From Quercus robur (taxonomy: Eukaryota > Streptophyta > Magnoliopsida > Fagales > Fagaceae): a DNA stretch of 64,000 nucleotides. Positions 7,742 through 62,260 of the stretch are shown here, piece after piece. The position numbers were made by a program, and so were the translations under genes. Each line of letters begins with the position of its first letter. Position 1 is the first letter of the stretch. Below the pieces are notes generated by a model that saw nothing but the letters and a program-made list of their open reading frames with translations, searched no databases and was not told the DNA's origin. Location: assembly GCF_932294415.1 (NCBI RefSeq), contig NC_065536.1:7190474-7254473 (forward strand), read 5' to 3'.

Positions 7742-7837
7742 GACATTAGTGTAGGGCTTCTCTTGTAGTTATTTTGTTTTGTTTTTCATTTCCTTAGCTT
7801 TTGTTAATGTTTGTGTAAGGTTGAATTTAATCAACCA

Positions 7838-8916: not shown

Positions 8917-9096
8917 GTTTGTAAGATGATGCATCTCGGAGCTTAATGAATGATATAATTTCTTCTTTGAACTTCATTTTACTGTTTCCATTTTTGTCTT
9001 CATTGTGAATGAATTTTGACTGTGTTACTAGACCTCCAAGGATAACCCATTACTCGTAGTTTAAGTAATACGGCTAAGTATGAATGAGAGGATAGT

Positions 9097-9916
9097 GACT
9101 AATTTCCCCCAAGCCCGTGGTTCGAGGTGCCACGCAGGATTTGGGTTCTGTTTAGCACTTAGTTAAATGACATAGTGATTAATTTCCCCCAAGCCTGTGG
9201 TCCGAGGAGCCACGCAGGACTTGAGTTCTGTTTAACACTTAGATAAAACTGCGTAGTGGTTAATTTTCCCCAAGCCTGTGGTCCGAGGAGCCACGCAGGA
9301 CTTGGGTTCTGTTTAACACTTAGATAAAATGACACAACGATTAATTTCCCCCAAGCCTGTGGTCCGAGGAGCCACACAGGACTTGGGTTCTGTTTAACAC
9401 TTAGATAAAAACTGCGTAGTGGTTAATTTCCCCCAAGGCTGTGGTCCGAGGAGTCACGCATGACTTGGGTTTTGTTTAACATTTAAATAAAAACTGCGTA
9501 GTGGTTAATTTCTCCCAAGCTTGTGGTCCGAGGAGCCACGAAGGACTTGGGTTCTGTTTAACACTTAGATAAAAACTGCGTAGTGACTAATTTCCCCCAA
9601 GCCTGTGGTTCGAGGAACTATGCAGGACTTGGGTTATGTTTAACACTTAGATAAAAATTGCATAGTTGTTAATTTCCCCTAAGCCTGTGGTCTGAGGAGC
9701 CACGCAGGACTTGGGTTCTGTTTAACACTTAGATAAAAACTGCGTAGTGGTTAATTTCCTCCAAGCCTGCGGTCTGAGGAGTCACGCGGGACTTGGGTTC
9801 TATTTGACACTTAGATAAAAACTGTGTAATGGCTAATTTCCCCCAAGCTTGTGGTCCGAGGAGCTACGCAGGACTTGGGTTCTGTTTAATTCTTGAATAA
9901 AAATGCATGGTGGGTA
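9097..9916. repeat. 82-bp tandem array with hairpin core (element A)
   Basis: About ten diverged copies of an 82-bp unit (ttaatttcccccaagcctgt, ggtccgaggagccacgcagg, acttgggttctgtttaacac, ttagataaaaactgcgtagtgg). Within each unit CCCAAG-CCTG-TGG faces CCA-CGCAGG-A-CTTGGG across a short tccgagga loop, so each copy can fold into a hairpin. The array lies between the end of pol and the antisense exon, as in element B. Confidence 0.9.
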
Positions 9917-9938
9917 ATACCAAGAGTACGAACTTTCA

Positions 9939-12900
9939 TTAATAATAATACCTTTTCAGGTTATTTACATTCCAAGGACGTGGCACTACATGCTCATCCA
10001 AATCTTCTAAAAAGTAGGCCCCTATGCCGGCCACCGAGGTGATACAATATGACCCTTCCCAATTTGGTCTGAGCTTTCCCCACGTAGGATTTTTTGCAGT
10101 GCCCAGAACTTTTCTTAATACCAGATCCCCATGTACTAGTGGCCTTAGTTTCACCTTGGCGTCATAACCTTGCTTAAGTTTGTGTTGGTAATAGGCAAGT
10201 TGGACCATTGCTTTTTCCCTTCTTTCCTCAATGAGGTCTAAGCTTTTTTCCAGCAGCTCGTTGTTGACATTAGGACAAAATGTGCTGGTCTTCAGCATTG
10301 GGAAATTTGTTTCTAGGGGGATGACGGCCTCGGCTCCATAGGTCATCGAAAAGGGGGTCTCCCCTATGGATCTGCACGGCATGGTACGGTACGTTCATAA
10401 GACATGATGCAGTTCTTCCACCCATCTCCCCTTCGCATCATCTAACCTCTTCTTTAGCCCATTTACGATGACCTTGTTAATGGCTTCGGCCTGCCCATTC
10501 CCCTGTGGGTAAGCTAGTATGGAGTATCTATTCGTAATTCCTAACTCGCTGCAATACTTTCTGAAGGCTTTACTATCGAACTGGAGACTGTTGTCCAAGA
10601 TTAGGGTGTGAGGGACTCCGAACTTGGTGACGATGTTCTTCCAAATCAATTTCTTGGCATCTACGTCTCTAATGTTTGCCAGTGGCTCGGCTTCGACCGA
10701 TTTTGTGAAATAATCAGTACCGACGAGAAGGAATCTTTTGTTCCCCACTGCTTTAGGAAATGGTTCTAGGATATCCAGGCCCCACTACACGAACGACCAA
10801 GGGTTGGACAGCGGATTAAGGGTCCCATCCGGTTGATGTATATTTAGGGCGAACCTCTAGCATTGGTCGCACTTCTTCACGTATTTGTGCGCCTCTTTCT
10901 GCATGCTCGGCCACTAGTAACCTTGGGTTATGGCTCTATGGGACAAGGACCTACCCCCTGTATAGCTCCCACAAATTCTTTCATACAATTCCTCTAAGAT
11001 AAGTTTTGTGGCATCAGGGTGTACGCATAGCAAATACGATCCTGAAAATGAGCGTTTATACAATTTCAAGTCCTCGGACAGCCAGAATTGAGGAGCCTTC
11101 CTTCTAATCTTGTCGGCCTCACTCTTCTCTTTGGGTAAGACGTCTTCCTTTAAAAATAGTATCAAAGGATCCATCCAGCTAGGCCCTGCCCTGACGCTGC
11201 AAACATGCATCAACTCGGCCTTCACCACCAAGGGTCTGTGTAGATCTTCCACGAGTATAACTCGAGGTAGGCATTGCGCCGAGGAGGTGGCTAGCGTGGC
11301 AAGAGAATCGGCATGGGTGTTTCCATTCCTGGATACATGCATTAGGCTAAAATAGTTAAAACGCACACGCAAGCGCTTAGCTTGGACCAGGTACTCTTGC
11401 ATTTTTTCATCCCTTGCCTCCAATTCCCCATTTACTTGTCCTAAAATAAGTCTTGAGTCCGAGAACATGTTTATGGATTTCCCGCCTAGTTTCTCGACCA
11501 TGGACATTTCTTCCAACAGGGCCTCATATTCTGCCTCCTTATTCATGGTCGAAAAGCCCAGTCTTAGTGATTTCTCGATAGTAATCCCCTCGAGGGAAAT
11601 CAGGATGAGCCCCACCCTAAAGCCCCTTTGATTTGCTACGCCGTCAACATATGCTTTCCAACAGGTGGGCCCTTGCTGAGAGACTGTGCTGACCAATTTT
11701 TCGTTCGTGCTTGGTATCCCTCCCCCTTCTTCTAGTGAGGGTTTAGCAAACTCAGCTACCAGATCCGCGAGGACTTGGCCCTTCACAACGCTGTGAGGCA
11801 TGTATCTAATGTCGAAGGCGCCAAGAATGGTCCCCCACTTAGCTACTTTCCCTGTGTAATCGACATTTCGGAGTATTGACCTGAGCGGGAGTTGGGTTAA
11901 CACAACAACTGTGTGTGCCTGGAAATAGTGGGGGAGTTTTCGCGTGGCTTGTACGATCGCCAGGATGGCCTTTTCTAGGGGTAGGTAACAGATCTCTGCC
12001 TCATGCAACGACTTGCTCATGTAGTAGACAGGTCGTTGTATGCCATTGTCCATCCGGATCAGCACCAGGCTCACTACGTGAGGGGCCACGGTAATGTAGG
12101 CAAATAAAACCTCATCGACTTCAGGACTGGACATGATTAGTGGTCGAGACAGATACTCTTTGAGCTGCTGGAAGGCAAAGACGCATTCTTCAATCCACTC
12201 GAACCCTTTCCACTATTTTAATAAGAGAAAAAAAGGCCTACACCTATCCGTCAAACGAGAGATAAAACGGTTCAAGGCGGCAATCATGCCGGTGAGCTTT
12301 TGGACCTCCTTGGGGTTCCGAGGAGGCTGCATGCTGTGGATAGCTCTAATCTGGTCGGGACTGACTTCAATACCTCTGTGGATCACCATATAACCTAAGA
12401 GTTTCCTTGATCCCACTCTGAACGAACATTTAGACGCGTTCAGGCATAGCTTGTATTTTCTCAGGATTTCAAAGATATCGCCGAGGTCCCTCAAGTGCTC
12501 GGACACCAACTTACTCTTTACCACCATGTCGTCTATATAGACTTCAATGTTCTTGCTCATCTGCAGTTCAAACATCCTGGTCATCATCCTCTAGTAGGTG
12601 GACTCGGCGTTCTTCAAGCCAAAAGGCATCACCTTATAGTAGTAGTTTCCAATGGGGGTGACAAAAGCCGTCTTTTCTTGGTCGTCGGCGGCCAAGGGTA
12701 TTTGATGGTATCCTTGAAAGGCGTCTAAGAAGTTCATTCGAGGGTGTCCCATGATTGAATCCACCAATCGATCTATCCGAGGCATAAGAAAAGGATCCTT
12801 CGGGCAGGCCTTATTCAGGTCCACAAAGTCCACGCAGACTTGCCATTTCCCACTCTTCTTCTTCACCACAACTGTATTGGCCAGCCACTTAGGGTAGAAA

Positions 12901-15240
12901 ACTTCTTTGATAGCCCCTGCTTTCTTTAGTTTCATCACCTCCTCTCTCACCGCATCAGCATGCTCTTTCGACGGTCGCCGAGGAGGTTATTTCTTAGGCG
13001 TAACGGCCGGACTAACATTAAGATGATGGCATATGAAATTCGGATCAACCCCCGGAGCCTCGTAGACATCCCACGCAAACACGTCCACATTTTCTTTGAG
13101 AAAATCAATCAGCTTTTCCTTCTCTTGGGATGGCAGTTCCGAACCAACCTAAAAAAATCTTTCCGGATCGGAACCCACAAGAACTTTTTCCAAATCCTCA
13201 CAACTTGCCTCCTCAACAAGTCCCCCACCACTCGAGGCCGGGGCTGGGGTTATTAATTACTATAAGCCATTCTCGGTAGAGGATGAGGGCTCGGCACTCG
13301 GCCTTCGTGAGATGGCAGACACCATGCATTGCCGGGCCATAGCTTGGTCCCCTATCACTTCTTTGACCCGACCCCTCGACGAGTACTTCACCTTTTGGTG
13401 TAAGGTTGAGGATACAGCCCCTAGGGCATGAAGCCAAGGTCTAGCTACAATGGCGGTGTAGGGCGAATATGCGTCCACCACTATGAAGTCCACCTCCATT
13501 ATGTTTGTGCCTGTTTGTATAGGCAGCCTAATCTGGCCTTTCGGAGTAACAGTTTTCCCTTCGAAACTTACCAAAAGGAAGTCGTATGCTGTCAGGTCTT
13601 CCGGTCTCAACTTCAGCCCCTTGTACAGGTCGGGGTACATTACTTCCACGGCACTGTCCTGATCGACTAGCACCCTCTTCACGTCATATCCCCCAATCCT
13701 GAGTGTGACAACTAGAGCATCGTCGTGGGGCTGGATGGTTCCAACTTTATCCTCATCCGAGAATTCAGTATGGGCAAGGCCATCCCTTTAGCCCTCTTAG
13801 ACTCACGGTCGTTAGCTTCAGCAGGGAGCCGGTTCTTCCTGGAGCGGCGAGAATGACATTTATCGTGCCAATAGGCGGTTTCAAGGTGCTTTACCTTGCC
13901 TCGACGCTCGCCTGCTCTTGTTGGCCACCAGAATGGTGCAAAAGATGTCTCAGCTTTCCCTCTCAGACCAGCTGGTCCAAGTGGTTTTTCAGATTTCTAT
14001 AGTCATCGGTGGTGTGCCCCGGTTCCTGGTGGTATTCGCAATATAGGCTCTAATTGCGTTTCGCAGGGTCACCTGCCATCCTATTTGGCCATTGAAAGAA
14101 CGGCTCGTTCTTGACTTTCTCTAAGATCTTATGTAATGGTTCCCGGAACACAGCGTGGACTGCCTGGGCCCCGGTGGATCCAGACTGCTCCGAGTAATCC
14201 TTTCTCGGCCGGTTGTTGTTGCTAAATCGGTCCGACCTGAAGTCCTTCCTCTTTTGAGGGACAACCTTCGCTTTTCCCTTTCCCATTTGTTGGTCCTCTT
14301 TGACCCTCTTGTACTTGTCGATTCGGTCCATGAGCTGGCGCACGCTGGTGACCGGTTTCCCAGTCAGGGATTTCCTTAAACCATGCTCTGTCGGCATGCC
14401 TCTCTTGAAGGTGCTGATGGCGACGTCATCATAATTTCCCTCTATCTCGTTATACATCTCCCAGTACCTATCCGAGTAGGCCTTCAGGGTCTCTCCTTCT
14501 CACATGGATAAGGACAAAAGGGATTCTAAGGGCCGAGGAACCCTACTGCTCGTTATGAAGCTAGAACCGAAAGCCTGGATTAGCTGCTTAAAAGAATTTA
14601 TGGAGTTTGGTTTGAGGCTGTCAAACCACCTCATTGCCATGGGTCTCAAACTGGACGGAAACACTTTACACATCAAAGTTTCGTCTCTGGAATAGACGGC
14701 CATCCTCTGGTTAAACTGACTTACGTGCTCTACGGGGTCCGTCCGACCATTATATATGGTGAAAGTGGGTTGGTGGAACCGCCGAGGAAGTTCAGCCCCC
14801 TCTATCCTACGCGTGAAGGGTGACTGAGAGATGCAGTCCAGGGCCTTACTCATGGCGTCGTTTGCTAGGCCCTTGTGAGACGGACTTTTGTGGTCGCGTT
14901 TGTGAGGTTGCTCTTCCTTATAGGAGAAGGTTTCATTTGGTGGGGTTCTCGACCTTCGCCTGTACTTGTTGTCCTTTTCATCGCTGGTGTCCGGACTAGG
15001 GGAAGGACGCCTCTGCTATGCTCGGCGCAACTTCCTCTTCAAGTCGTCGATTTCTTGCTGGAGAGCCCTATTATCGCCCTGCTTCTGGGATGCATGACCT
15101 TTCCCTCTCGAGCAGCTTTTACTCGTATGGGAGGTATTTACGCTACCTTTTCGTCGCCTGTCTTGATCTCTTTCCCGTTCGAGGTTAGGGAAGTTGTCCT
15201 ACCGTTAGGAGTCTGCGGGTCCTGTTTGTCGCAGACCTGA
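9939..15240 (-). pseudogene. Gag-pol of gypsy element A, multiply broken
   Basis: Gag (about 15240-13900) has the retrotransposon gag core (FHQPTFTIYNGRTDPVEHV, MRWFDSLKPNSINSF). Protease follows (VLVDQDSAVEVMY, 13682-13260). Reverse transcriptase (12950-12213) has CVDFVDLNKACPKD and the catalytic YIDDM. A degenerate first RNase H and a second one (YVDGVA, EAEYEAL) lie in 12134-10914, then the integrase zinc-binding and DDE regions and the C-terminal GPNWEGSY-like block ending near 9939. In-frame stops occur at about 15023, 14498, 12588, 12210, 10911, 10857, 10785 and 10392. Most sit where the family has Gln, Arg or Trp, as expected from C-to-T decay. It cannot encode a full polyprotein. Confidence 0.85.
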
Positions 15241-15283
15241 TCCTTCCTTTTCTAACAGTCGTACTTGCTGAGGCACAAATTCT

Positions 15284-15300
15284 CCCCACAGATGGCGCCA
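15284..15300 (-). promoter_or_regulatory. Primer binding site of element A
   Basis: On the minus strand, two bases inside the LTR edge, TGGCGCCATCTGTGGGG matches the TGGCGCC-type tRNA primer sites of plant gypsy elements. Confidence 0.8.
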
Positions 15301-15302
15301 AT

Positions 15303-16087
15303 TGTAGGGTCTTAATTTGGGGCTTAAGCCCAACAAGTATGGGGTCTTGGTCCAAGGGGCCCTGAAATAATGAATTTGTAGAGAGTGGGTTACAGAACCG
15401 GGCCTTAACGAAGTAGATAAAGACTAAGTTTGGGCTACACAACACTTGAACACAAGAAAATCCTGTTAGTGTCCATATATTCTCAGTCCGAGGAGATGAG
15501 ATAGATATTTGCTAGTTCTTACTTTCAGTTTTCCAGTTCTTTTTCTGTTCTCCTTGCTTTTCTCGCGTCCCCTTCCTCATGAGGACTCCCTTTCTTATAT
15601 ATATAGCCTCCTTGAAGCCATCGTGGCCTTACACTTGTTGATTATCTGGACTCCCACTTAAGTGCTTGTCCCATTGGACACCCCTTCCACCTTTCTATGA
15701 GTTGTGGTAGCTAAGGCAGCACTGTTCATAGGTCTTCTCCACATTAATGCGGCCAGAAAAGTAGCTGCAACGCATTTAATGTGGCAGCTGAGCCTCTCCT
15801 TGGGCATCTTTCGTTTCCTTCTTTGCCACGGGTCTGTAGGGCTTGTCCTTGCTACTAGTGTTCGTTAGGGTGGATCATTTTAGTAGGCAGAGTGCATATT
15901 GAGCCCTATTCGTCACGTCCGAGGAGACATTTCTCCTTGGACTGCCCTTTAAGTGACTTCAGGCCTACGAGAACTGGACTGGGACTCCTTTTGGTATCTA
16001 CATCCTCTCCTCGGACATGGTTGACCATCTCGTATGGGCCCCAAGGCCCATTGTATGATTTTGGGCCTTTAGGCCTTTGCCCCTACA
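15303..16087 (-). repeat. 5' LTR of gypsy element A
   Basis: A 785-bp LTR bounded by the perfect 7-bp inverted ends TGTAGGG and CCCTACA. On the minus strand it has a CTATATATATAAG TATA box (about 15595-15607). Two solo LTRs of the same family lie at 41743-42469 and 44658-45458. Shared landmarks include a cattaatgcggccag segment and a block around tgagtgcctgtcccat. Confidence 0.85.
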
Positions 16088-16350
16088 AATAGATATAGAT
16101 GTTTATTTTTTGTTTATTAGTCAATTTAATAGGCTAAATATACCAAGAGTTTTGTAACTTAATTGACACATCCTCATACACAAATTGCTTAGGGGTAAAG
16201 GGGGAAAATGGTTTGAGTTGCAGTATTAACTATCTTAAAAAAAATGATAAATATTTATTCATTAAAAATATTAAAAAGTATAAGTTTATATATCACTTAC
16301 CATGCCAACCTCTAATTAAAATGTAAGTTGATTTATAAATATAGACAATT

Positions 16351-18257: not shown

Positions 18258-18445
18258 TTGACTAATTGCAATAGTTCTTACTTACAATGTTTGAATGTGT
18301 AGTTTTGCTAATTAACTAGTCAGGCATGTCTATAGTGGATAATTGTGATGGTTCTTACACTGCTTCAATGTATAGTTTTATTAATTAACTGATCAGATAT
18401 ATGTACACAGTCGATAATTGTAATAGTTCTTACACTATTTGAATG
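18258..18445. repeat. Degenerate 75-80-bp tandem repeat, split by element B
   Basis: Three diverged copies share taattg.aatagttcttac, gaatgta/gtgtagtt and taattaact. The third copy is cut at 18445 by element B and resumes at 28834 (tatagtaaca), so the empty site is visible. Confidence 0.65.
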
Positions 18446-18897
18446 TGATGACGTCGAAAACCGTCACCAATGGGTCACACCGTACTCGCGACTCGAATTG
18501 AACCTGCACGACGAAACAAACTAAAGAATCCTTCAGAGAGCACCGGTGTGGTGCCGGCCAAAGACTCTCCGACGGTCAAGTTAGAATTCCTCTGTTTTAC
18601 TTAGTGCGTTAGAGAGGGTTCATAAAAGCATACCTCGATTTCTGTGGGTATTACGCCTTTTATAGTGATAAGGGGTTGACTTTCCCTTTTTGGTTCCCAC
18701 ATCTTTTCAATGTGGGACTCTATTCCCAATTCTTCCAAACGTGGTGAGCAAGGATTCTCATTACCGGATCATGGGCCCTTGCTGCGTCAGTAGTGATGGG
18801 CCTTCAAAGCTGGGACCATACCTACGCAGGCCCAAGAGACCCAATCCGTCAGGCCCATTAAGGTAAGCCCATCATGCCCAATATTTTATCATCTTCA
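18446..18897 (-). repeat. 3' LTR of element B
   Basis: A 452-bp LTR, TGATGACG to CATCTTCA. On the minus strand a CTATAAAAGG TATA box lies at 18656-18665. It differs from the other LTR at one position seen by eye. Confidence 0.95.
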
Positions 18898-18915
18898 GTT
18901 GCCCCCTTCACCCCA
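18898..18915 (-). promoter_or_regulatory. Polypurine tract of element B
   Basis: On the minus strand GGGGTGAAGGGGGCAAC directly precedes the 3' LTR. It is the expected plus-strand DNA primer for reverse transcription. Confidence 0.8.
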
Positions 18916-19178
18916 ATGATCCGTCACCTTTAAGGTCAAAGGATCAGTGGGGTGACGGTCCTTACATATGGATATGACGGATTCATGCAAAATAGAACGA
19001 CGGTCCTAGCTGGATCAACCCGTCAAAGGAAGAATCATCCAGTTGACGGATACATGGCAGGTACAAATCTGTTGGTACGTACTGACAGGTTGTCAGCATT
19101 TATTAAGCATGCCACGTGTCACTCTCTGAATGGTCGTTGTATAGGATCGAAGCGTCGCTTCGTCTTCCGTGCACTTCC

Positions 19179-19190
19179 TATATATATAAG
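19179..19190 (+). promoter_or_regulatory. TATA box of the antisense gene in element B
   Basis: TATATATATAAG followed by GGCGCC lies about 290 bp before the antisense ATG, on the plus strand. The sequence from about 19212 would be leader, containing an intron with good borders at 19351-19469 (cg|gtaagtg to attgtag|gaa). Confidence 0.6.
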
Positions 19191-19472
19191 GCGCCTCACT
19201 CTTTCATTTTTCAATTTTCACTCAGAAAACACTTGTCAGAGCGAAGCCGTCAACCCTGTCAGAGAAAAGCCGTCAACCTTATCTGTGCAATCCGTCGAGG
19301 ACGAATACTCGCTGATTACACCAACCGTCACCTATCCTCTGCTAAGTTCGGTAAGTGTTTCTAATTTACTATAGTCAAGTTACATTCTCTTCCATGCATT
19401 GTTGTTAGGCTTTCCATACCCGTCAACACTTTCAAACCCGTCGGTCTTAGGTTTTATTGTCAATTGTAGGAA

Positions 19473-21613
19473 ATGTCTAGTGCGTCAAGTAACCAGTCGG
19501 TGGTTCGTGATGGGACGGAATACGAGGATGTATACCCGTCCGGTCATAAAGACCAAGAGAGCCCCGGCGAAAGTAGGAGTCCGTCTGCCTCCTCTTCATC
19601 CTCAACAAATGAGGATGTGGAGATAGTCGAAGTAGAGGGTTCCGATGATGACGGGGATCAACAACTGGAGTCCGTTGTAGGCGCTGATGGACTAAGGCAG
19701 TTCATCATGTTGCCAGAGTGGACTGTTCATAGGTTTACATCCGTCATCAGGGAGAGACATTTCAGCACCTTCAGGACCAACTTCCAAATCCCAGACTATG
19801 TCTCCATCCGTCTACCATATGTGTCGGAGAAGTGTTATTACGAAGGGGTAGACGGTGTAGGAGTGTACGAGCAGGCATTGAAGGCTGGACTTCGATTCCC
19901 GCTTTCTACCCTTCATAGGGAACTCTTGCAGTATCTGGGGTTGTCCGTCACCCAGATATCCCCTAACGCCTGGAGGGTCTTCATAGCCATGGAGATTCTT
20001 TACGGTGCAATGTCAAACGGGGAAAGGAAATTGACGGTCCGTGAATTTCTTCACTGTTACCGTCCAGACGAGATTTCTGGATCAAGGGGGATGTACAGTT
20101 TTGCCAGTCGGAGCCCCTTGTTGAAGGTGATCTTTGAGACCCCAGACTCAAATAGAGACTGGAAGAGTCGGTACTTCTTTCTGGAGGGTGATAGATGGAT
20201 GAACCATCCAGGGGAGACGGAGTTCATGCCCGTCGACACAACTTGGGCAGTTATAAATCAGACGCGTATGCATCCGTCTAAATTTTGTGTTGCTTTTCAT
20301 ATCCGTCCAGTTATATGTGTATATCTTGATCATCTTTCTTTGCAGGTAGACGGCGCCCACAAGTCAGCCTCGAGGAGTTTAGCTTCCTTGAAAAGGTTTG
20401 CAAGAAGACTACGCCGGAGGAAAGGACTTGGGCGAAGTTGGTGAACCCGAGGACCATACATTGGTACTGCGACGGTCCTGAGCCCACCCAAGAAGCGATA
20501 AGATACGACGAGCGAGTTCACAAACGTAAGCCCGTCAACTTTACTTTGTCATTTATTTTGCTTTATTTTGTTTTAATTTCATCCGTCATTATTTGCAGAG
20601 ATGGATGACGCAAAGAGGAGAGCTTTGATCAAGTCCCAAGCCGTCAAGAAGAGGGAATCCGGCGAGGAGGTTCCTAAGGCATCAGCTTCAGTCCCTAAAA
20701 GGAAACTGACGACAAAATCCGACCGTCCCTTTAAGCAACCAAAGGTCTCTCTTGAACCTGTGGTTGGCTTAATGGCTGAGGGTAACAAGGCCGTCACCCC
20801 AGCAAAGCAGGGGAAGGGCAAAGGATTGATGGCGGTCCCAGACGGTAAGCAAGAGAGACCTCCTTCCCTTCTTCGTGATGACTCCAAGTATGCATTGGAG
20901 AAACTGTCGTCCATCATCACGGCAGAAGACTATGAAGACCTGGGAAACCATTCGACGGAGGCCATGGGGGAGACGGGCCTCTTCGCCGTCGCTCAGGTTG
21001 GTTATGTTTGTCAAATAAGTTTTTGTTTTTCATTCTTCCTGTTACTTACATTATGTGACGGTCTCTTTTCTACTTGCAGTCCTTGGTCATGATGAAGGGA
21101 CTACTTGACCGGTGTCTCAACCGTGAGAGTAGCTTGGACCGGGTGCGCGCGAAGGCGCAGCAGACGGAGGAAGAGCTCGGACAACTTCAGAGATGGAGGT
21201 CCAAGATGGAGAAGAAGCTGGAGCTTTCTGAGCAGGCGAGGAAGGAGCTTGAGGAGAAGACGGCCACTTCGCTGACGGTCATAGAGAACAAAGAAGCTGA
21301 GATAAAACAACTCAAAGAAGAGATCCGTCAGGCTAAAGTGGCAGCCGTCGAGGAGTACCGATGCTCGGAGTCCTGTTTGGGCGAGCTGTCGGACTCCTTC
21401 CTCCAAGGATTCGATGATTCCCTCCGTCAAGTCAAGAAGGCTTATCCAGAGCTGGACTTGACAATGGTCAAACTTGAGGACCAAGCCCAGACTTCTGCCC
21501 TCCCCGTCGCCTCCGAAAATACGGAGGACCTTTTTGGAGACGGTGCTGCTCAGGGAGACGGAGAGTCCGCCCCGTCGAAGGATGTCCCAGATGCTGAAGA
21601 AAAGAAAGATTGA
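19473..21613 (+). CDS. Antisense four-exon gene of element B (Transposase_28-like, coiled coil)
   Basis: Exons are 19473-20265, 20346-20525, 20599-20996 and 21080-21613. All introns are GT-AG, phases 1, 1 and 0 keep the frame, and the exons total 1905 nt (634 residues plus stop). Residues 1-60 are acidic and Ser-rich. Residues about 70-290 contain the pattern GLRFPLSTLHRELLQYLGLS followed by PNAWRVFIAMEIL, which I recognise as the plant 'putative gypsy type transposon' family (Transposase_28, PF04195). Exon 3 is basic and disordered-looking. Exon 4 is a long Glu/Lys coiled coil (about residues 470-560) with an acidic tail. A leader intron (19351-19469) and a TATA box at 19179 suggest its own promoter. 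It runs head-on toward gag-pol. The biochemical role is unknown; nothing marks it as a catalytic transposase. The C-terminal exon has a counterpart at 7208-7741. Confidence 0.8.
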
Positions 21614-21814
21614 TGCATATGTACTTTATTTTGTGAACAATCCGTCTTTCTTTTTTATTCATTTTTTAAGACAATCCGTCCCTTTTTTTGTATTGAACAT
21701 TTGCCTTTGGGGCTTTTGGCTTAAAAGTTCACATGCTTTTTATAATTGTTTGGTGCTCTGTTTAAAACTCCGTCTACCTTCTTGAGGGATTATTTTTGTG
21801 AGAATATTTGTTAA

Positions 21815-22860
21815 TCTGTGATTATCCGTCCACATTGCAGACTTGTTATCTTGTGTTGATTGAGCATTTACATCGGTGAGGATTTTCCTTCTCCGTCTGT
21901 TTTGAGGGGTTTATTATGCTGACCGTCCACTTTGTGGCGTTGTTCATCACTTTTAAATATATCGCGTATTTAATGGACTTGTAGAAAATTTTAACGTAGC
22001 CAGTATACGTCCACTTTGCGAAAACGTCCATCTATTGTATCCGTCCACCTTGGGACTTTATTTCATGTAGGACAGTCCGTCCATCTCAAGGACTTTATTT
22101 CATGTATTTCAACATCTTTGTGATCTGTCCACTTTGTGGACTAATTGCATCACCTTTGTGATCCGTCCACTTTGTGGACCTATGTCACATCACCTAAGTG
22201 GTCCGTCCACTTGGTGGACTTATGTTTCATCACCTTAGTGATCCGTCCACTTTGTGGACTTATGTTTCATCACCTTAGTGATCCGTCCACTTTGTGGACT
22301 TATGTTTCACTACCTTAGTGATCCGTCCACTTTGTGGACTTATGTTTCATCACCTTAGTGATCCGTCCACTTTGTGGACTTATGTTTCACTACCTTAGTG
22401 ATCCGTCCACTTTGTGGACTCATATTTCATCACCTTAGTGATCTGTCCACTTTGTGGACTTATGTTTCACCACCTTAGTGATCCGTCCACTTTGTGGACT
22501 CATATTTCATCACCTTAGTGATCCGTCCACTTTGTGGACTTATGTTTCACTACCTTAGTGATCCGTCCACTTTGTGGACTCATATTTCATCACCTTAGTG
22601 ATCCGTCCACTTTGTGGACTTTTGTTTCATCACCTTAGTGATCTGTCCACTTTGTGGACTTATGTTTCACCACCTTAGTGATCCGTCCACTTTGTGGACT
22701 CAGGGTGATCGTCCCTGTAGGACGATCCGTCCATCTTGTGGACTTCATATTGTGTCCGTCCATCTTGTGGACTTATGGTTATCATCCCTGTAGGATGATC
22801 CGTCCACCTTGTGGACTTAGTGGGATCGTCCCTGTAGGATAATCCGTCCATCTTGCGGAC
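21815..22860. repeat. 40-bp tandem array with hairpin core (element B)
   Basis: The core (about 22110-22700) is 14-15 copies of a 40-bp unit (atccgtccactttgtggact, tatgtttcatcaccttagtg), flanked by degenerate copies. Variants (tttcat/cacc, tttcac/tacc, catatttcat) alternate, suggesting higher-order duplication. Each unit holds the perfect 6-bp inverted repeat GTCCAC-TTT-GTGGAC. The array lies between the antisense stop (21613) and the pol stop (23082), that is, at both convergent 3' ends. Confidence 0.95.
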
Positions 22861-23081
22861 TTCTATCGTTTCCGTTAACTTTTGTGGGCAATTGCAATGA
22901 CATACATTCAAGTAGAAGATCAAAAATTGCATCTGATTGTAGAATGCGTAAAGGAAAAGTGCCTGCCCCCTTGGGCTTAAAAAAGGCACGACAATATTGT
23001 AGCAAAAATAGTTAAACAGTGCCAATAAAAGTTAATAATTCCCAAAAAGTCTTAAAAGAGAAACTGGTTGTCGTGTCGCTA

Positions 23082-26000
23082 TCACTGGTAGTATTTCCTC
23101 AAGTGCTCGGCATTCCACGGATGTGGTAGCTTTTCTCCGTCTATTGTCTCCAGGTGGTATGTCCCTTTCCTTTTCCACGACGTAACTCTGTAGGGTCCTT
23201 CCCAGTTGGGGCCGAGTTTTCCTTGTGTAGGGTCTCTAGTTGTACCCATGACCCTCCTGAGTACGAGGTCTCCAACTTGGAAGCTTCTTTGTCGGACCCG
23301 GGAGTTGAAATGTTTGGACATGCGATCCTGGTATCTAGCGATCCTCTGTTCTGCTTCCGACCTGACCTCGTCTATAAGGTCCAGCTGTAGCCTCATGGAT
23401 TCGTCATTCCTTCCCTCGTCGTGGTTGTGAACCCTGTAGCTCGTGAGCCCAACTTCCGCTGGGATGACTGCCTCGCTCCCGTAGGTCAGTCGAAACGGTG
23501 TCTCTCCTGTCGGAGTCCTCGCCGTTGTCCTATATGCCCACAGTATGCTTGGCAGTTCTTCTGGCCATATGCCCTTTGCCCCCTCGAGCCGAGTTTTGAT
23601 AATCTTTAGCAAGGATCGGTTTGTGACCTCAACCTGACCGTTAGCCTGAGGATGGGCAGGGGATGAGTAGTGGTTTTTTATTCCTAGTTGTGAGCAGAAA
23701 TCACGGAAGGGGCCGTTATCGAACTGCCTCCCGTTATCTGAGACAAGGACTCTAGGAATACCAAACCTACATACTATGTTCCGCCAGACAAAACTTCTAA
23801 TGTTCTTTTCTGTAATGGTGGCCAAGGCTTCCGCTTCTACCCATTTCGTGAAGTAGTCAATGCCCACTACCAAGAACTTTAGCTGCCTTATCGCCGTTGG
23901 GAAAGGTCCCATGATGTCCAGTCCCCACTGAGCGAACGGCCATGGAGCCGTTATGGGGGTCAGCTCTTCAGCTGGCTGTCCGATAAAATTGCTGAACCTC
24001 TGGCATTTGTCGCATCTTTTAACATAGGACTCAGCATCCTTTTGCATGGTCGGCCAGTAATATCCAGCTCGTAACAGTTTGTGCACCAACGACCGCGATC
24101 CAGAATGGTTCCCGCATATTCCTTCGTGTACTTCCCTCATCACGTAGTCTGCCTCTTCAACCCCGAGACATCTTTGGTAAGGACGGGAGAAACCTCTCTT
24201 GTAAAGAATGTCTTTTATCAAGACGAACCTTGCCGCTCGGACTTTTAGCTTTCTGGCTGCCTCCTTCTCTTCAGGCAATATCCCGTCCTTTAAGTATGAA
24301 GCTATCGGCGTAGTCCAGTTTCTTTCGGAGCGTATCTCCTGCATGTTGTCGGGGTCTATTAGCGGAAAGATTTGAACAAAGGGAAGTACATTACCCGGTG
24401 TTATCATATGTTCTGCTGAAGCGGCTTTGGCTAGCCGATCAGCGAGCTCATTGTCTCCCCTGGGGATCTGGACGAACGTTGCTTTTAGCCCGTCGACTCT
24501 CGCCTTTACTTGATCAAGATATCTCTTCAACCTTTCCCCTTTGCATTCATAATCTCCGTTTACTTGATTGGTGACGACTTGAGAGTCGCAATGCACGGCC
24601 ACACTTTCAGCTCCGGCGGCTTTAGCTAGTTCGAGTCCTGCTGCTACCGCTTCGTATTCTGCTTCATTGTTGGTAATGGGGAAGTCGAGACGGACCATAC
24701 ATTCAATCTTGTCTCCTTCAGGTGACAGCAATACTATGCCGGCTCCTCCAACTCGCTTATTGGATGATCCGTCGGTGTAGATGTTCCACTGGGGGGGTTC
24801 TTCTGCCCCCTTGTCCGCGTCATGCGTAAACTCAGCTATGAAGTCGGCTACAGCTTGTCCTTTGATGGCCACACGTGGACGATACTTGATGTCAAACTCA
24901 CTCAATTCTATTGCCCACAGCGTCAGTCGACCTGCGGCCTCAGGATTACTTAGTGCCCTTCGCAAGGGCTTGTCGGTCACTACGTTCACGGTATGGGCTT
25001 GAAAGTAGGGCTTGAGCTTGCGAGCCGCCGTGACCAACGCAAAAGCGAGTTTCTCCATAGGTTGGTATCTTTCCTCGGCACCGCGGAGCGCCCGGCTGGC
25101 GTAGTACACGGGCTTCTGTGCCCTGTCCTCCTCTCTGATTAAGGCCGCGCTGACGGCCACAGTGGAGACGGCCAAATAGAGGAAGAGCTCTTCACCTGGT
25201 TGCGAGGGGCTCAGTAGAGGTGGTGAAGATAGATAGGTTTTTAACTCCTCGAATGCTCGTTGACACTCGTCCGTCCACTCGAATGACTTTTTCAATATTC
25301 GGAAGAAAGGTAAACATTTGTCCGTCGCTCTCGACACGAATCTATTCAATGCCGCTACCTTGCCGTTAAGGCTCTGTACTTCCTTCACGTTTCTCGGGGG
25401 GGCCATCTCCATTATGGCTCGGATTTTGTCCGGGTTAGCTTCAATCCCCCTTTGAGATACCATGAATCCTAGGAATTTTCCTGCCGTTACACCAAACGCG
25501 CACTTTCCTGGATTGAGCTTCATGTTGTAGGATCGGAGTGTGCCGAATGTTTCCTTGAGATCTTCCAAATGGTCTTCCTCCTTCCGGCTCTTCACCAGCA
25601 TGTCGTCGACATAAACTTGGACGTTCCTCCCGATTTGCTGTGCGAACATCTTGTTCATTAGTCTCTGGTATGTTGCCCCTGCATTCTTCAGACCGAATGG
25701 CATTACTTTGTAACAGAAGAGACCTTGACTGGTTACAAACGAAGTCTTCTCCTGGTCGTCCTCGTGCATGCGGATCTGGTTATAACCCGAGAAAGCATCC
25801 ATGAAGCTTAGCAATTGGTGTTGAGCCGTCGAGTCCACTAGGATGTCGACCCTTGGGAGGGGATAGCTATCTTTGGGGCATGCTTTGTTAAGATCGGTGA
25901 AGTCCACGCACATCCGCCATTTGCCACTCGTTTTCTTCACCATTACCACATTCGCCAGCCAATCGGGGTAGTAGACTTCCCTGATGAAGCTTGCATCTTG

Positions 26001-28313
26001 GAGTTTGCGGACCTCTTCCGCTATTGCTTGGTCTCGTTCCGGGGCGAATACTCTCTTCTTTTGTCGGACGGGTGGAAACGAGGGCAACACGTTCAACTTA
26101 TGTACCATGACCGAGGGATCGATTCCTGGCATATCGTCATGGCTCCAGGCGAACACATCCTTATTGCTTCTCAAGAAAGCCACGAGCTCTTGACGGATTG
26201 CGGGTTTTGCAAGCGTTCCAATCCTGGTGGTTCGGTCTGGATTGGAACCGTCGAGAGTTATCTCCTCTAGCTTCTCAGTAGGTTCTGCCGTCGTTCGGTG
26301 TTCTTCTATGTTCAAGGCCTGGATCTGGTCTTCCACCTCCATCATAGCTACGTAGCATTCTCGTGCGGCAATTTGGCTTCCGCGTAGCTCTCCTACCCCA
26401 TACTCCGTTGGGAACTTGATCATCAGGTGGTATGTTGATGTTGCCGCCTTCCACGAGTTGAGAGTGGGCCGTCCAATAATAGCATTGTAGGCTGACGAGC
26501 AATCGACCACCAAGAATGTTACGTCCTTGGTGATTTGTTGGGGGTAGTCTCCTACCGTCACCGATAACGTGACGGCGCCCAAAGGGAAGATCCTACTCCC
26601 CCCGAAACCAACGAGCGGGGCGTTTGTCGGTATTAGCAGCTCTCTATCAATCCTCATTTGTTGGAATGCCGGATAATACATGATGTCGGCCGAACTACCG
26701 TTGTCGACCAACACCCGGTGGATGTTGTAGTCGCCTGCCCGCAAGGTGACGACGAGTGCATCGTCGTGTGGATGGTGTAGGCGTCTTGCATCCTCTTCCG
26801 AGAACCCGATAATGGGGCCTTCCCTTCTTGCCATCTTTGGTACCGTGCCTGCCAGCTGGACATTCTGTACCATCCGAAGGTACGTTTTGCGAGCCTTTTT
26901 GGACGATCCGGCCGCAGCTGTTCCTCCAATTATCATCCTTATGTCCCCTATTGGGGGCCTTGGCCGCTCGTTTTCTCGACGGGGGTGTTGTTCTTGTTGG
27001 GGTTGATCCATTCTTTCCTTGCTGACGAACTTCTTCAGCTTTCCTTGTCGGATAAGGTTTTCGATTTGTTGCTTCAAGTCGTAACAATCGGCAGTGTCGT
27101 GACCATGGTCACGGTGGAAGCGGCAATATTTGTCTCTTGACCTTTTGTTGGGATCACTCTTCAGCTTTCCCGGAAACGTCAGGGATCCTTCGTCCTTAAT
27201 CTGCATTAGGACTTGGTCTATCGGAGCGGTCAACGGGGTGAAACTTGTGAACCTTCCACCCATGGGTTTTGGACGTCTCTCGTCCCTTCGATCTCCCATC
27301 CGTCCTTTTTTTTGCCCCTGGTCCTGTCGGGGATCCTCTTGTCTGTCTCTTTTCTTCGGTCTGTCTTCTCTTGCTAGTAGAGCGTCTTCAGCGTTCATAT
27401 ACTTGGTGGCCCTGTAAAGCACCTCCGACATTGTCTTTGGGTCGTTTTTGTATAGGGAGAACAAAAACTTACCCCCCTTCAGCCCGTTTGTGAACGCGGC
27501 CACCAATATTTTGTCGTCGGCTTCGTCGATTGTGAGCGCTTCTTTATTGAAGCGTGATATGTAGGCCCGTAACGTCTCCTCCTCTCTCTGCTTGATGTTC
27601 ATCAGACAAGCCGTGGATTTTTTGTACCGATGTCCTCCAATGAAGTGTGTAGTGAACTGAGCGCTCAGCTCCCTGAAGGTGCCGATGGAGTTTGGTGTCA
27701 GCCGGCTGAACCAAATCCTTGCCGCGCCCTTCAGGGTTGTAGGGAATGCCCTACACATAATTGCGTCCGCCACTCCCTGGAGGTGCATCAGGGTCTTGAA
27801 GGTCTCTAGGTGATCGAGGGGGTCCTTGACTCCGTCATAACTGTCCATGCTCGGCATGCGGAACTTACTCGGCAGGGGGAAGGAGTTGACGGACGCCGTA
27901 AATGGCGAGTCAGTCCGGTTGACAAGGTCGTCGAGATCGCTGGACACTCGCCCCTTGAGAGCGTTCATCAGGACTTCCATCTGTTCCTTCATCGCCTGCA
28001 TCTCTGCGATGATGGGTTGTGGAGCTGTGTCCGTCACTGAGGGGATGCTAGCGTCCCGTCGCACTTGTTTGCTCGGGGCGTTACTCTCCTGTGGTCCGTC
28101 ATTATTTCTCCTTTCCTCACTGTTCCCTTCTTGATCTTCTCCTTGGCTATTCACGGCTGCACTCTTTTGATTCAGCTGTTCCGTCAGGTCGTGGTTTTGT
28201 TTGGTGAGGCGCTCCACAGCTGCGGCGAGCGTCTTGACCTGTCTCTCAAGGGCAGTCGTAGGAGCTTCTTCTTGGACGTCATTTGTGGTTGCCATCGAGC
28301 GCGTGAGTACCAT
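23082..28313 (-). CDS. Gag-pol polyprotein of element B, intact
   Basis: A single 1743-residue frame. An N-terminal coiled coil (about 22-50) precedes the gag core (about 150-250). A compact zinc-binding motif of CxFHxxxGHxTxDC type is at about 396-409. Protease has the active-site DNGS near 537. Reverse transcriptase (about 770-930) has FTDLNKACPKD and catalytic YVDD near 900-903. The first RNase H (about 990-1130) is degenerate. A second RNase H follows with YTDGSS near 1179 and NNEAEYEA. Integrase has its zinc-binding domain ending CDKC near 1432, the DDE core with D near 1464 (WGLDIMG), D near 1525 (SDNG) and E in the QANGQVEVTN block, then a GPY/F-type C-terminus (LGPNWEGPYRVTS). There is no chromodomain. 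It has no stop or frameshift. The first ATG follows the primer site by about 40 nt and is a reasonable start. Confidence 0.95.
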   Translation of the reverse strand: MVLTRSMATTNDVQEEAPTTALERQVKTLAAAVERLTKQNHDLTEQLNQKSAAVNSQGEDQEGNSEERRNNDGPQESNAPSKQVRRDASIPSVTDTAPQPIIAEMQAMKEQMEVLMNALKGRVSSDLDDLVNRTDSPFTASVNSFPLPSKFRMPSMDSYDGVKDPLDHLETFKTLMHLQGVADAIMCRAFPTTLKGAARIWFSRLTPNSIGTFRELSAQFTTHFIGGHRYKKSTACLMNIKQREEETLRAYISRFNKEALTIDEADDKILVAAFTNGLKGGKFLFSLYKNDPKTMSEVLYRATKYMNAEDALLAREDRPKKRDRQEDPRQDQGQKKGRMGDRRDERRPKPMGGRFTSFTPLTAPIDQVLMQIKDEGSLTFPGKLKSDPNKRSRDKYCRFHRDHGHDTADCYDLKQQIENLIRQGKLKKFVSKERMDQPQQEQHPRRENERPRPPIGDIRMIIGGTAAAGSSKKARKTYLRMVQNVQLAGTVPKMARREGPIIGFSEEDARRLHHPHDDALVVTLRAGDYNIHRVLVDNGSSADIMYYPAFQQMRIDRELLIPTNAPLVGFGGSRIFPLGAVTLSVTVGDYPQQITKDVTFLVVDCSSAYNAIIGRPTLNSWKAATSTYHLMIKFPTEYGVGELRGSQIAARECYVAMMEVEDQIQALNIEEHRTTAEPTEKLEEITLDGSNPDRTTRIGTLAKPAIRQELVAFLRSNKDVFAWSHDDMPGIDPSVMVHKLNVLPSFPPVRQKKRVFAPERDQAIAEEVRKLQDASFIREVYYPDWLANVVMVKKTSGKWRMCVDFTDLNKACPKDSYPLPRVDILVDSTAQHQLLSFMDAFSGYNQIRMHEDDQEKTSFVTSQGLFCYKVMPFGLKNAGATYQRLMNKMFAQQIGRNVQVYVDDMLVKSRKEEDHLEDLKETFGTLRSYNMKLNPGKCAFGVTAGKFLGFMVSQRGIEANPDKIRAIMEMAPPRNVKEVQSLNGKVAALNRFVSRATDKCLPFFRILKKSFEWTDECQRAFEELKTYLSSPPLLSPSQPGEELFLYLAVSTVAVSAALIREEDRAQKPVYYASRALRGAEERYQPMEKLAFALVTAARKLKPYFQAHTVNVVTDKPLRRALSNPEAAGRLTLWAIELSEFDIKYRPRVAIKGQAVADFIAEFTHDADKGAEEPPQWNIYTDGSSNKRVGGAGIVLLSPEGDKIECMVRLDFPITNNEAEYEAVAAGLELAKAAGAESVAVHCDSQVVTNQVNGDYECKGERLKRYLDQVKARVDGLKATFVQIPRGDNELADRLAKAASAEHMITPGNVLPFVQIFPLIDPDNMQEIRSERNWTTPIASYLKDGILPEEKEAARKLKVRAARFVLIKDILYKRGFSRPYQRCLGVEEADYVMREVHEGICGNHSGSRSLVHKLLRAGYYWPTMQKDAESYVKRCDKCQRFSNFIGQPAEELTPITAPWPFAQWGLDIMGPFPTAIRQLKFLVVGIDYFTKWVEAEALATITEKNIRSFVWRNIVCRFGIPRVLVSDNGRQFDNGPFRDFCSQLGIKNHYSSPAHPQANGQVEVTNRSLLKIIKTRLEGAKGIWPEELPSILWAYRTTARTPTGETPFRLTYGSEAVIPAEVGLTSYRVHNHDEGRNDESMRLQLDLIDEVRSEAEQRIARYQDRMSKHFNSRVRQRSFQVGDLVLRRVMGTTRDPTQGKLGPNWEGPYRVTSWKRKGTYHLETIDGEKLPHPWNAEHLRKYYQ

Positions 28314-28356
28314 GTAACTCCTTTATCTAGGAAATGTTACCGTACCCGGTCGTCGT

Positions 28357-28374
28357 TTCCCACAGACGGCGCCA
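28357..28374 (-). promoter_or_regulatory. Primer binding site of element B
   Basis: Minus-strand TGGCGCCGTCTGTGGG begins two bases inside the 5' LTR edge. Element A has the same site with one change, so both use the same kind of tRNA primer. Confidence 0.85.
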
Positions 28375-28376
28375 AC

Positions 28377-28828
28377 TGATGACGTCGAAAACCGTCACCA
28401 ATGGGTCACACCGTACTCGCGACTCGAATTGAACTTGCACGACGAAACAAACTAAAGAATCCTTCAGAGAGCACCGGTGTGGTGCCGGCCAAAGACTCTC
28501 CGACGGTCAAGTTAGAATTCCTCTGTTTTACTTAGTGCGTTAGAGAGGGTTCATAAAAGCATACCTCGATTTCTGTGGGTATTACGCCTTTTATAGTGAT
28601 AAGGGGTTGACTTTCCCTTTTTGGTTCCCACATCTTTTCAATGTGGGACTCTATTCCCAATTCTTCCAAACGTGGTGAGCAAGGATTCTCATTACCGGAT
28701 CATGGGCCCTTGCTGCGTCAGTAGTGATGGGCCTTCAAAGCTGGGACCATACCTACGCAGGCCCAAGAGACCCAATCCGTCAGGCCCATTAAGGTAAGCC
28801 CATCATGCCCAATATTTTATCATCTTCA
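28377..28828 (-). repeat. 5' LTR of element B
   Basis: A 452-bp LTR, almost identical to 18446-18897. Minus-strand TATA box CTATAAAAGG lies near 28587-28596, and the LTR drives gag-pol. Confidence 0.95.
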
Positions 28829-28833
28829 GAATG

Positions 28834-32321: not shown

Positions 32322-33493
32322 TTAATTTATAAAACCACCAACAAAAGGAACTCCCACACTTGGCAGCCATTGGGTACCATTAATAAAATTTTCAACAGTA
32401 AAATGTTTAATCTCTTCAGAATTTTTGGCAATATGATACCCGGGCCATTTAACTCTTCCTGTTGTATTGGCTCCTGGGCCCCAATTAGCATACTCCACGT
32501 GATGCAAAGTGGATAAGCTTTTCTTGTCATTGTTCGGAAGCCATCCTTCAGGGTCAACCAATTTGTCTAGAAAACATTCCATGACAATGGTTTGTGAATA
32601 ACTATACCACGGCCTGCCTAGAAATGTTTTGATTTGTGGGTAAGGTTGAAGATCTTTGTCAGCCTTAATGGAACAATTGTGTAATACTATTCCTGTATCT
32701 TCCACTTGTCCTCGACCTTGAGCTGTGATCATATTCACAGTGCCTTCCGTACGCTTCCTCACGTAAATGTCACAATTCTGTAAGACAACTCGTGAATTCC
32801 CAAATATGAAATCTACTGTGCCATAAACTTCACATTCTCGGAAGAAATGAATACCATATGCTGTCAGTAACGTATCTTGGTATCCTTGTATGGAGCATTG
32901 GTAAATTGCAATTCGGTCACCGGCTACTCTCAAAGCCACAGCTTGGCCACCATCAGGTCCAGCATTGTTCACAAATCTAATACCTTTAACAAACACATCA
33001 TTGGCGCTAATATCTAAATGAAGAAATATAAATGAAATAATCAGTATGTGTTAAAAAAATAAATAAACAACAACAACAACTACATGTGTTAATAGATATT
33101 TACAACATTACATGCAAAGTTAAATAAAAAAAAAAATTACGACTAATATGAGAATAAAACCTTACCTACTGTAGCTGATCCTGAAGTTCCATAACCTTGT
33201 TTTGCAGTTTTGTTAAATTGAACAATAGTCTTTTCCATGCCTTCTCCAATTAAAACTAAGTTAGACATGTTTTGAGCTATGTAAACCGCTTCATTATATG
33301 TCCCTTGTTTGATTAAAATAACATATGGACTGTTACGGCCTATTGGAATCTTTGATATGGCTTCGTTAATGGTGTTGAAGTTGCCACTGCCATCAATGGC
33401 AACTGTGACATTGGGCTTGTAAGATTGAACATTGACACATGAAATGATCAATAGAGTTAAAAAGAGAGGTAGACGAACAATATGTATTGCCAT
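32322..33493 (-). CDS. Pectinesterase (pectin methylesterase), secreted, without pro-region
   Basis: Removes methyl esters from cell-wall homogalacturonan, releasing methanol. Exon 1 is 33493-33166 and exon 2 is 33013-32322. The intron has minus-strand GTAAGG and ATTTAG borders, phase 1. The product is 339 residues. Residues 1-24 form a signal peptide ending near VQS. The catalytic beta-helix carries GTYNE (64-68), QAVALR with Q133, GYQDTL with Q155 and D156, DFIFGN with D177, and LGRPW with R243 and W245. All expected active-site residues are present. There is no N-terminal inhibitor (PMEI) domain, so it belongs to the short class. Some short plant pectinesterases are pollen-specific; that assignment here is only inference. 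A truncated relative lies at 30720. Confidence 0.93.
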
Positions 33494-36367: not shown

Positions 36368-36655
36368 TGATAACAACAAAGATTCAAGACCACAGCTGGC
36401 ACCCTTAGTTTCTGTAGACCAGCAAGGATAGCGTGATCTCCTCCCACAACTGGCACCCTTAGTTTCTGCAGACCAGCAAGGATAGGCGTGATCTCCTCCA
36501 TATTTTCTTTATTCTTTCCTAATATATATCTAATTACATTTACATCAGTTATGTTGTACAGATCCCACCTTGTAATATTTTATCTATAATCTATATAAGT
36601 AAATACAAGAAATCTCTCTATCTCAACCGTGAGACAGAGTTCTCAAAATTCTTTA
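36368..36655 (+). repeat. 5' LTR of the copia element
   Basis: Starts TGATAACAAC and ends AATTCTTTA. It contains an internal 54-bp tandem duplication (cacagctggcacccttagtt, repeated from 36391 and 36445). Confidence 0.9.
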
Positions 36656-36668
36656 TGGTATCAGAGCC
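36656..36668 (+). promoter_or_regulatory. tRNA-Met primer binding site of the copia element
   Basis: TGGTATCAGAGCC immediately follows the LTR. This is the standard initiator-Met primer site of plant copia elements. Confidence 0.95.
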
Positions 36669-36708
36669 ACTGGTGAGATAGAGAGATTTCCTTCTTCCTT
36701 TTTCAATC

Positions 36709-62258: not shown

Positions 62259-62260
<2 letters not shown>

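Follow-up and report, generated by a model that had tools for sequence, protein, structure and literature searches.

It is already known that Retand elements, a lineage of plant long terminal repeat (LTR) retrotransposons, carry antisense open reading frames (ORFs) with a TRP28 domain; a published survey finds them in nearly all recent Retand clusters, with tandem arrays in about half (PMC11963269). The window studied here, meaning the whole stretch of 64,000 nucleotides of Quercus robur that was analysed (assembly GCF_932294415.1, contig NC_065536.1, positions 7,190,474 to 7,254,473, forward strand), contains such an element, called B, at 18446-28828, and a decayed relative, called A. An earlier model-made note on the same DNA, below called the sequence-only reading, had pointed to a spliced antisense gene in B and stated that antisense extra ORFs are known in the Tat clade, as is indeed published for Retand. 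We find in addition that B is strewn with one short motif, CCGTC, and the reading to which we give a probability of roughly 60%, by analogy with a known anti-silencing system, is that B is a Retand element with gag-pol and a spliced antisense TRP28 gene, the protein of which may bind the CCGTC motifs of its own family and keep that family transcribable.

The function of the TRP28 antisense protein was stated as unknown in papers of 2020 and 2025 (PMC7264820, PMC11963269), weak expression has been reported for Retand antisense ORFs (PMC7264820), and the survey's idea that TRP28 binds DNA rests on residue prediction (PMC11963269). Element B is like the surveyed elements in having its antisense TRP28 ORF, together with tandem repeats, between pol and the 3' LTR, and in its single gag-pol frame, which is common in eudicots (PMC11963269). 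The survey used ORF Finder and the word "intron" is absent from its text; in contrast to B, no gene of more than one exon and no dispersed motif peculiar to a family is described in the portions of it that were examined (PMC11963269). In the maize element Grande, gene23 is an antisense accessory gene that is transcribed from a promoter of its own and codes for a protein located in the nucleus (Gomez-Orte 2013, via PMC7264820); the TATA box and, presumably, the TRP28 protein of B would correspond to these. What is new here is the selected dispersed motif, presumably cognate to TRP28; antisense TRP28 ORFs and, for Grande gene23, the own promoter have already been published (PMC11963269, PMC7264820). 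Our search of the open-access literature, with most subscription papers outside its scope, gave no report of a dispersed motif or of anti-silencing by Retand.

The closest system with regard to function is that of the Arabidopsis VANDAL transposons, in which the proteins VANC21 and VANC6 recognise short motifs, multiplied in tandem repeats, and strip methylation from the DNA (PMC5735166). Like VANDAL, B combines an element-encoded protein with a multiplied, family-specific short motif and tandem arrays, and related families have shifted motifs both in VANDAL and among the TRP28 lineages described below (PMC5735166). The differences are that VANDAL is a DNA transposon with motifs in noncoding sequence, whereas B is an LTR retrotransposon with an antisense gene and motifs also in exons, and that binding and demethylation were demonstrated for VANC, whereas for TRP28 they are inferred (PMC5735166). 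A 2026 paper on sunflower methylation refers to VANC and raises the question of whether the extra ORFs found in other LTR lineages influence methylation; it describes locally lower CG and persistently high CHG methylation in sunflower Retand elements, a pattern which neither proves nor excludes the anti-silencing idea (PMC12844716). The VANC-like trait that we find in B is a selected element-encoded protein beside a multiplied, family-specific short motif, and we liken TRP28 to VANC by function alone, without claiming homology. Another comparison is offered by HBZ of HTLV-1, a spliced antisense nuclear regulator of the basic leucine zipper (bZIP) type, which lies opposite gag-pol and starts in the 3' LTR. 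The gene of B would share with HBZ the antisense position opposite gag-pol in a retroelement, the splicing and, presumably, a role as nuclear regulator; it differs in its internal TATA box, as against a start in the 3' LTR, and in having TRP28 in place of bZIP, and no homology is claimed here either.

By its domain order and sizes, element B is a young, recently inserted Retand-type Ty3/gypsy retrotransposon of the Tat clade. It had been described as a nearly new copy, which agrees with LTRs identical at 451/452 positions, i.e. one mismatch, and with a GAATG duplication on both sides. Its gag-pol, as first read, is on the minus strand in a single frame, in which a Pfam scan finds domains for gag, reverse transcriptase (RT), RNase H, a further RNase H (RVT_3) and integrase; RVT_3 occupies residues 1179-1297, between the RT_RNaseH and integrase domains, and a second RNase H at this place is a trait of Ogre and Retand (PMC6317226). 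The LTR of 452 bp, the internal part of 9479 bp and the distance of 4184 bp from pol to the 3' LTR, taken from the coordinates, are inside the published Retand ranges (PMC11963269). The features of B are the following:

18441-18445 (left) and 28829-28833 (right), flanking both ends of B: target-site duplication GAATG, 5 bp
18446-18897, minus strand: 3' LTR, identical to the right LTR at 451/452 positions, with 3 CCGTC/GACGG
18446-22020, both strands: field of 57 dispersed CCGTC/GACGG motifs, over LTR, promoter, exons, introns and 3' flank
18898-18914, minus strand: polypurine tract, purine-rich on the minus strand and adjoining the 3' LTR, read from the sequence; unchanged in 35/37 aligned sequences, the remaining 2 being without coverage
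19098-19215, plus strand: promoter region of the antisense gene, in which TATATATATAA starts at 19179, based on sequence and conservation
19351-19469, plus strand: leader intron, GT..AG, with borders intact in 36/36 copies, one of which has a 1-base length change
19473-20265, plus strand: coding exon 1, with acidic N-terminus and TRP28 (PF04195) domain
20266-20345, plus strand: intron 2, phase 1, with a T-rich GT..AG counterpart in six loci of other families
20346-20525, plus strand: coding exon 2
20526-20598, plus strand: intron 3, based on GT..AG borders and copies
20599-20996, plus strand: coding exon 3, lysine/arginine-rich
20997-21079, plus strand: intron 4, its donor damaged in copy L033
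21080-21613, plus strand: coding exon 4, probably encoding a coiled coil and an acidic tail
22107-22875: tandem array, 40-bp unit in 14.9 copies, then variants of 44-117 bp; the unit contains CCGTC
23082-28313, minus strand: gag-pol, single open frame (ATG at 28313, stop at 23082), based on ORFs, domains and codon usage
28357-28374, minus strand: primer-binding-site-like sequence adjoining the 5' LTR, read from the sequence
28377-28828, minus strand: 5' LTR, based on LTR comparison

The antisense gene runs on the plus strand, convergent to gag-pol, and its predicted transcript has five exons counting the leader, four of them coding, which fuse in frame to 634 residues across four GT..AG introns; the coordinates and the exon count of the sequence-only reading (four exons, 634 residues, a TATA box at 19179 and a leader intron) therefore hold. 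With codon usage trained on gag-pol, the annotated frame scores best in all four coding exons, and Markov simulations match the score in 0, 72, 1 and 0 of 2000 cases for exons 1-4, so that exon 2 is weak by itself; in none of 5000 simulated sets did all four exons stay open. GC content is 0.30-0.35 and T content 0.46-0.51 in the three introns of the coding part, compared with a GC content of 0.50-0.54 in the exons. PF04195 matches residues 132-169 with E 6.5e-5 and, for the whole protein, 23.5 bits, which is under the curated cut-off of 26.2, while the domain scored alone attains 26.2 bits, i.e. the cut-off, and all nine members of our alignment A2 match. In exon 4 there is a weak match to the CENP-F leucine zipper (residues 473-542, Pfam, E 0.045, below the cut-off), and searches of PDB sequences with exon 1 and alignment A2 as queries gave nothing at E 1. 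No in-frame stop interrupts intron 2 of B, and its retention would lead to a 323-residue protein that ends at 20444 (19473-20444, 324 open codons), while the same read-through frame has just 270 open codons in many other copies; regulated retention of intron 2 is possible.

Selection on this protein was studied in genomic copies. A search of the window's own genome (786 Mb), in which the best 40 of 628 candidates were scored, gave places that are 96-100% identical over 20000-21000, one of them being the window itself, and 36 of the 39 others were aligned over 18898-22020, which makes 37 sequences with B. The ratio of nonsynonymous to synonymous substitution rates (dN/dS) of the antisense gene against B is 0.04-0.28 in the 36 copies and 0.09-0.22 in the 22 copies that are more than 3% diverged, and is thus not near 1, the value that the sequence-only reading had named as its refutation. 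There are no indels in the exons of 35/36 copies (L033 has a 716-base insertion), 3/36 have an internal stop (L009, L030, L036), and the GT/AG borders of all four introns are intact in 35/36. Along the protein, the corresponding ratio of polymorphisms (pN/pS) is 0.057 for residues 76-170, 0.078 for residues 171-264, 0.05 for exon 2 and 0.099 for exon 3; it rises to 0.286 and 0.195 in the two segments at the C-terminal end and to 0.52 at the acidic N-terminus. Pooled across 18 disjoint close pairs the ratio is higher (0.24), and in some of these pairs replacement changes outnumber silent ones (11 to 5 in L030/L031), as fits post-insertion decay of single copies; since copies were selected by best match, decayed ones are under-represented.

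The putative promoter is conserved too. A 15-base segment around the TATA box is identical in 36/37 sequences, the sole exception differing outside the TATA run, and 19098-19215 diverges by 2-3%, compared with 4-9% in the other stretches tabulated (ten in all), so that, save for a 3-base stretch before the ATG, the TATA surroundings are the slowest of them. Judged by these alignments, which also settle that the gene is no chance arrangement, the spliced reading frame, the introns and the TATA box are kept by purifying selection, and the suggestion that B is a candidate for a functional two-gene system gains support from the dN/dS values, the kept introns and the conserved TATA segment.

The second component is the motif. 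Within 18446-22020, CCGTC occurs 57 times on both strands together, where 6.3 are expected, with a z of 20.2, compared with 5.6 for the largest z of any pentamer across 200 simulated sequences, and CGGTC, the highest of its 15 one-base variants, reaches 14 vs 6.3, so that no variant is enriched to a similar degree. Under synonymous shuffling, in which 0/1000 shuffles reach either count, 10.6 copies are expected in the antisense gene and 31 are present (z 8-9, 9.0 in the repeat), the corresponding numbers for gag-pol being 11.8 and 26 (z 5.2-5.8), and the noncoding stretches have 28 against 2.5. The best pentamers of six control reading frames have z values of 2.8-4.4, save GCAGC in the copia ORF1, with z 5.8 on 7 copies. 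Of the exonic motifs, 16 are forward and 15 reverse, and in either orientation each of the three codon frames is used; the array has 17 CCGTC, all on the plus strand. Per 500 bases there are 7-11 motifs from 18946 to the array end, 4 in the first 500 bases and 0-5 in gag-pol. The interval from the flank of the antisense ORF (aORF) to pol, which is mostly array, measures 536-1070 bp with 11-24 motifs in the 35/36 copies measured. Outside B, CCGTC is not enriched in the window, whether A is counted (53.6 kb; 24 vs about 22) or left out as well (14 vs 13.4). In an array-word test outside the array, the best 5-mer beats all 2000 random word sets in both elements; with 6 and 7 letters, random sets match it 33 and 23 times in B and 214 and 81 times in A.

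Three simple causes of the abundance were considered and rejected, namely codon or protein composition in the antisense gene, which the synonymous shuffles rule out, CpG retention alone, as base composition by itself predicts 5.9 copies, and dispersal from the array alone, as the flanks of the dispersed motifs are unlike beyond a few positions.

The motifs also change far less than their surroundings. Against the 22 diverged copies, 1/814 fourfold sites inside CCGTC differ, compared with 347/4686 non-CpG and 68/836 CpG sites outside, and in the introns 2/770 positions differ inside and 453/7025 outside. In noncoding sequence, 424/459 motif pentamers are conserved and 14072/20516 others, and the conservation of CpG is 0.983 inside motifs and 0.909 elsewhere. 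When each of four other copies was taken as the reference against all other sequences, the fourfold differences inside and outside were 1/1440 and 863/9000 for L019, 1/1368 and 545/9072 for L030, 26/1476 and 629/9000 for L029, and 62/1440 and 847/8892 for L035, i.e. the contrast holds with other references but varies. Judged by these copies, the dispersed CCGTC is maintained at the DNA level.

Further TRP28 loci were obtained by a PF04195 search of the same genome, in which 150 of 4149 candidates were scored, all above the cut-off, and nine loci were chosen, not at random, because their match ranges differed and their open frames were long. With arrays masked, the top pentamer is TCGTC in 9/9 loci and CCGTC in B (57 vs 6.2, with TCGTC at the background of 10 vs 9.6), which is the form NCGTC in 10/10, and the top z values of 9.1-20.3 compare with null maxima of 4.8-5.8 (60 simulations each). 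The hexamer TCGTCC is found 26, 19 and 24 times in L045, L046 and L048, where 1.6-1.8 are expected, and TCGTCA 17, 18, 14, 10, 17 and 14 times in L047 and L049-L053, where 1.4-1.8 are expected; with arrays included the counts are 25-33 for TCGTCC and 16-24 for TCGTCA, and in L050 and L051 another hexamer is on top (CTCGTC, and CCCCGC barely above the null). Between family members the motif words are kept better than other words, e.g., 33/48 vs 2009/7817 in L046. By these counts, each of the three TRP28 lineages compared has a different motif variant.

Six of these loci (L045, L046, L047, L048, L050, L053), with antisense proteins about 27-37% identical to that of B over the aligned parts, have a T-rich GT..AG stretch at the position of intron 2 of B, and at the DNA level the comparison of B with all nine loci gave no match exceeding 150 bases. 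Each stretch allows several alternative borders, and with those chosen by the shared donor GTGCGT and the last TAG/CAG before the conserved region, the candidate intron has phase 1 in all six, the same as in B. An intron at the same position in such divergent families means that the gene has most likely kept it long-term inside a reverse-transcribed element, and the candidate introns speak for the persistence argument made by the sequence-only reading. Their persistence would follow from the genomic RNA being complementary to the gene, so that splicing cannot occur at these sites.

Element A provides supporting but weaker evidence, as far as its sequence and that of its copies suggest. It is a more distant element, with 64% identity between the RT segments of A and B over 110 columns:

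About 7208-16090, minus strand: element A, decayed relative, with the left LTR and most of the antisense gene missing

The unit of its 82-bp array contains TCCGAGGA, and outside the array CCGAGGA is found 9 times, where 0.9 are expected; in the array-word test, random 7-mer sets reach the best score in 81/2000 draws. This candidate motif of A sits in the array, the LTR and gag-pol, together with forms that CpG decay would give (CCAAGGA 7 vs 1.6, CTGAGGA 4 vs 1.4), and variants of other origin are raised too (CCGAGAA 4 vs 0.9, CCGAGCA 3 vs 0.6). Five copies of the A family, chosen for long open frames after 150 of 2915 candidates had been scored, have 7-13 CCGAGGA each, arrays included; among the four 7-mers printed for each copy, for which no null was simulated, CCGAGGA appears in 3/5 and CGAGGAG in the other 2/5. 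A Pfam scan of exon 1, covering two of the five copies, found no TRP28, but profile comparison relates these two copies to the TRP28 alignment with E 8e-7 and a probability of 91.6 over 134 columns. The antisense tail of element A was considered as a relative of exon 4 of B and rejected, as there is no sequence similarity. Three stretches of the window (41979-42138, 42368-42402 and 45056-45202, the first two on the opposite strand) are 73-86% identical to the LTR of A.

The steps that we propose for B are that the TRP28 protein would be nuclear, would dimerise via its C-terminal coil and would bind the motif of its own family across LTR, promoter and array, and that such dense binding would leave the family open to transcription, the most likely route being, as with VANC, to counter DNA methylation, and the alternative being direct activation by TRP28. 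A wider idea, for which we would accept slightly less than even odds, is that Retand evolved sequence-specific anti-silencing or self-activation independently of VANDAL, and that each TRP28 reads its own NCGTC variant, so that protein and code co-diverge; as part of this tentative idea, the code would stand dozens of times per element, synonymous positions of its own exons included.

Several observations weigh against the reading of TRP28 as a binder of its own family's motif. The motifs of VANC are noncoding, whereas in B the exons and gag-pol carry the motif too, and in gag-pol its z is not above the 5.8 of GCAGC, a control pentamer that looks like a chance case, so that the case for gag-pol rests on the pentamer being the same as elsewhere. 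In the TCGTCA lineage (group III) CCGTC is raised as well (16 vs 5.4 in L047 masked; 13-22 vs 4.6-5.9 with arrays), which means that the motif specificities are not fully separate. The nine loci represent two further lineages, i.e. effectively three lineages of CGTC type plus the distant A family, where CCGAGGA is just modestly enriched, and since motif and TRP28 gene share one element, their co-variation among families could stem from shared descent. With regard to constraint, the copies are related by shared ancestry, random placement of 54 pentamers matched the observed constraint in 1/5000 trials, and 8/80 tabulated pentamer pairs were less divergent, with far fewer sites and with two of them overlapping the motif; from the random placement and these eight pairs, the constraint statistics are strong and not unlimited.

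Among other explanations, the one that survives best, though we consider it unlikely, is that the motif is a site for a host protein, e.g., a recruited transcription factor, while TRP28 has a different task, e.g., bringing the pre-integration complex into the nucleus or aiding integration. A core of 5 bp is typical for host factors. In the literature, nuclear localisation and an accessory role are suggested for these proteins (PMC7264820), which would suit this explanation too. However, the motif differs among TRP28 lineages of one genome, which is unexpected for one shared factor, its density peaks over the aORF half and the array and not over the LTR alone, and the window outside A and B, as given above, is not enriched. 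It is improbable that the motif serves RNA or replication roles (packaging, priming, binding by Gag or integrase) and not recognition of double-stranded DNA; the element-wide occurrence, gag-pol included (26 vs 11.8), and the plus-strand bias of the array (17 to 0) would agree with such roles, but orientations in the aORF exons are equal (16 and 15), the strongest enrichment is in the antisense half, and the motif is kept in introns, which the mature antisense mRNA lacks.

That the enrichment has no function and results from mutation, from the scatter of tandem repeats or from biased gene conversion seems very improbable to us. Arrays with the motif do expand and contract, and the leader contains a 23-bp duplication that adds motif copies, but the flanks of dispersed motifs differ as stated, CpG is kept better inside the motif than elsewhere, fourfold sites inside it hardly change, and the enrichment survives synonymous shuffling. 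Lastly, it is scarcely credible that the functional product is the antisense RNA (as double-stranded or small interfering RNA) with an incidental reading frame, as, although antisense transcripts can trigger or modulate silencing (PMC7264820), the copies contradict it by the dN/dS of 0.04-0.28, the in-frame join of four exons and the near absence of exon indels.

The remainder of the window contains a copia element at 36368-41165, with 221-bp repeats that are 96% identical and a polyprotein in two adjoining open stretches, and a DUF659/hAT-like transposase region at 59239-62600, where CGGCC/GGCCG occurs 21 times vs 2.8 expected, perhaps as terminal binding sites or simple repeats. Two host-like genes are a pectinesterase fragment on the minus strand (32322-33050) and, on the plus strand (51277-51792), a plant invertase/pectin methylesterase inhibitor. 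At 43945-46456 there are several direct repeats, in tandem or dispersed, of 118-227 bp, unassigned to any element. In collections of viral contigs, genome contigs and phages no relatives were found, and a plasmid collection gave three distant RT matches.

If the proposed reading is true, plant LTR retrotransposons carry their own sequence-specific answer to silencing, a strategy that the literature consulted here describes for DNA transposons. Here an intron-bearing gene survives many rounds of reverse transcription because it is antisense, and the codes CCGTC, TCGTCC and TCGTCA within one genome would make the co-evolution of protein and DNA measurable.

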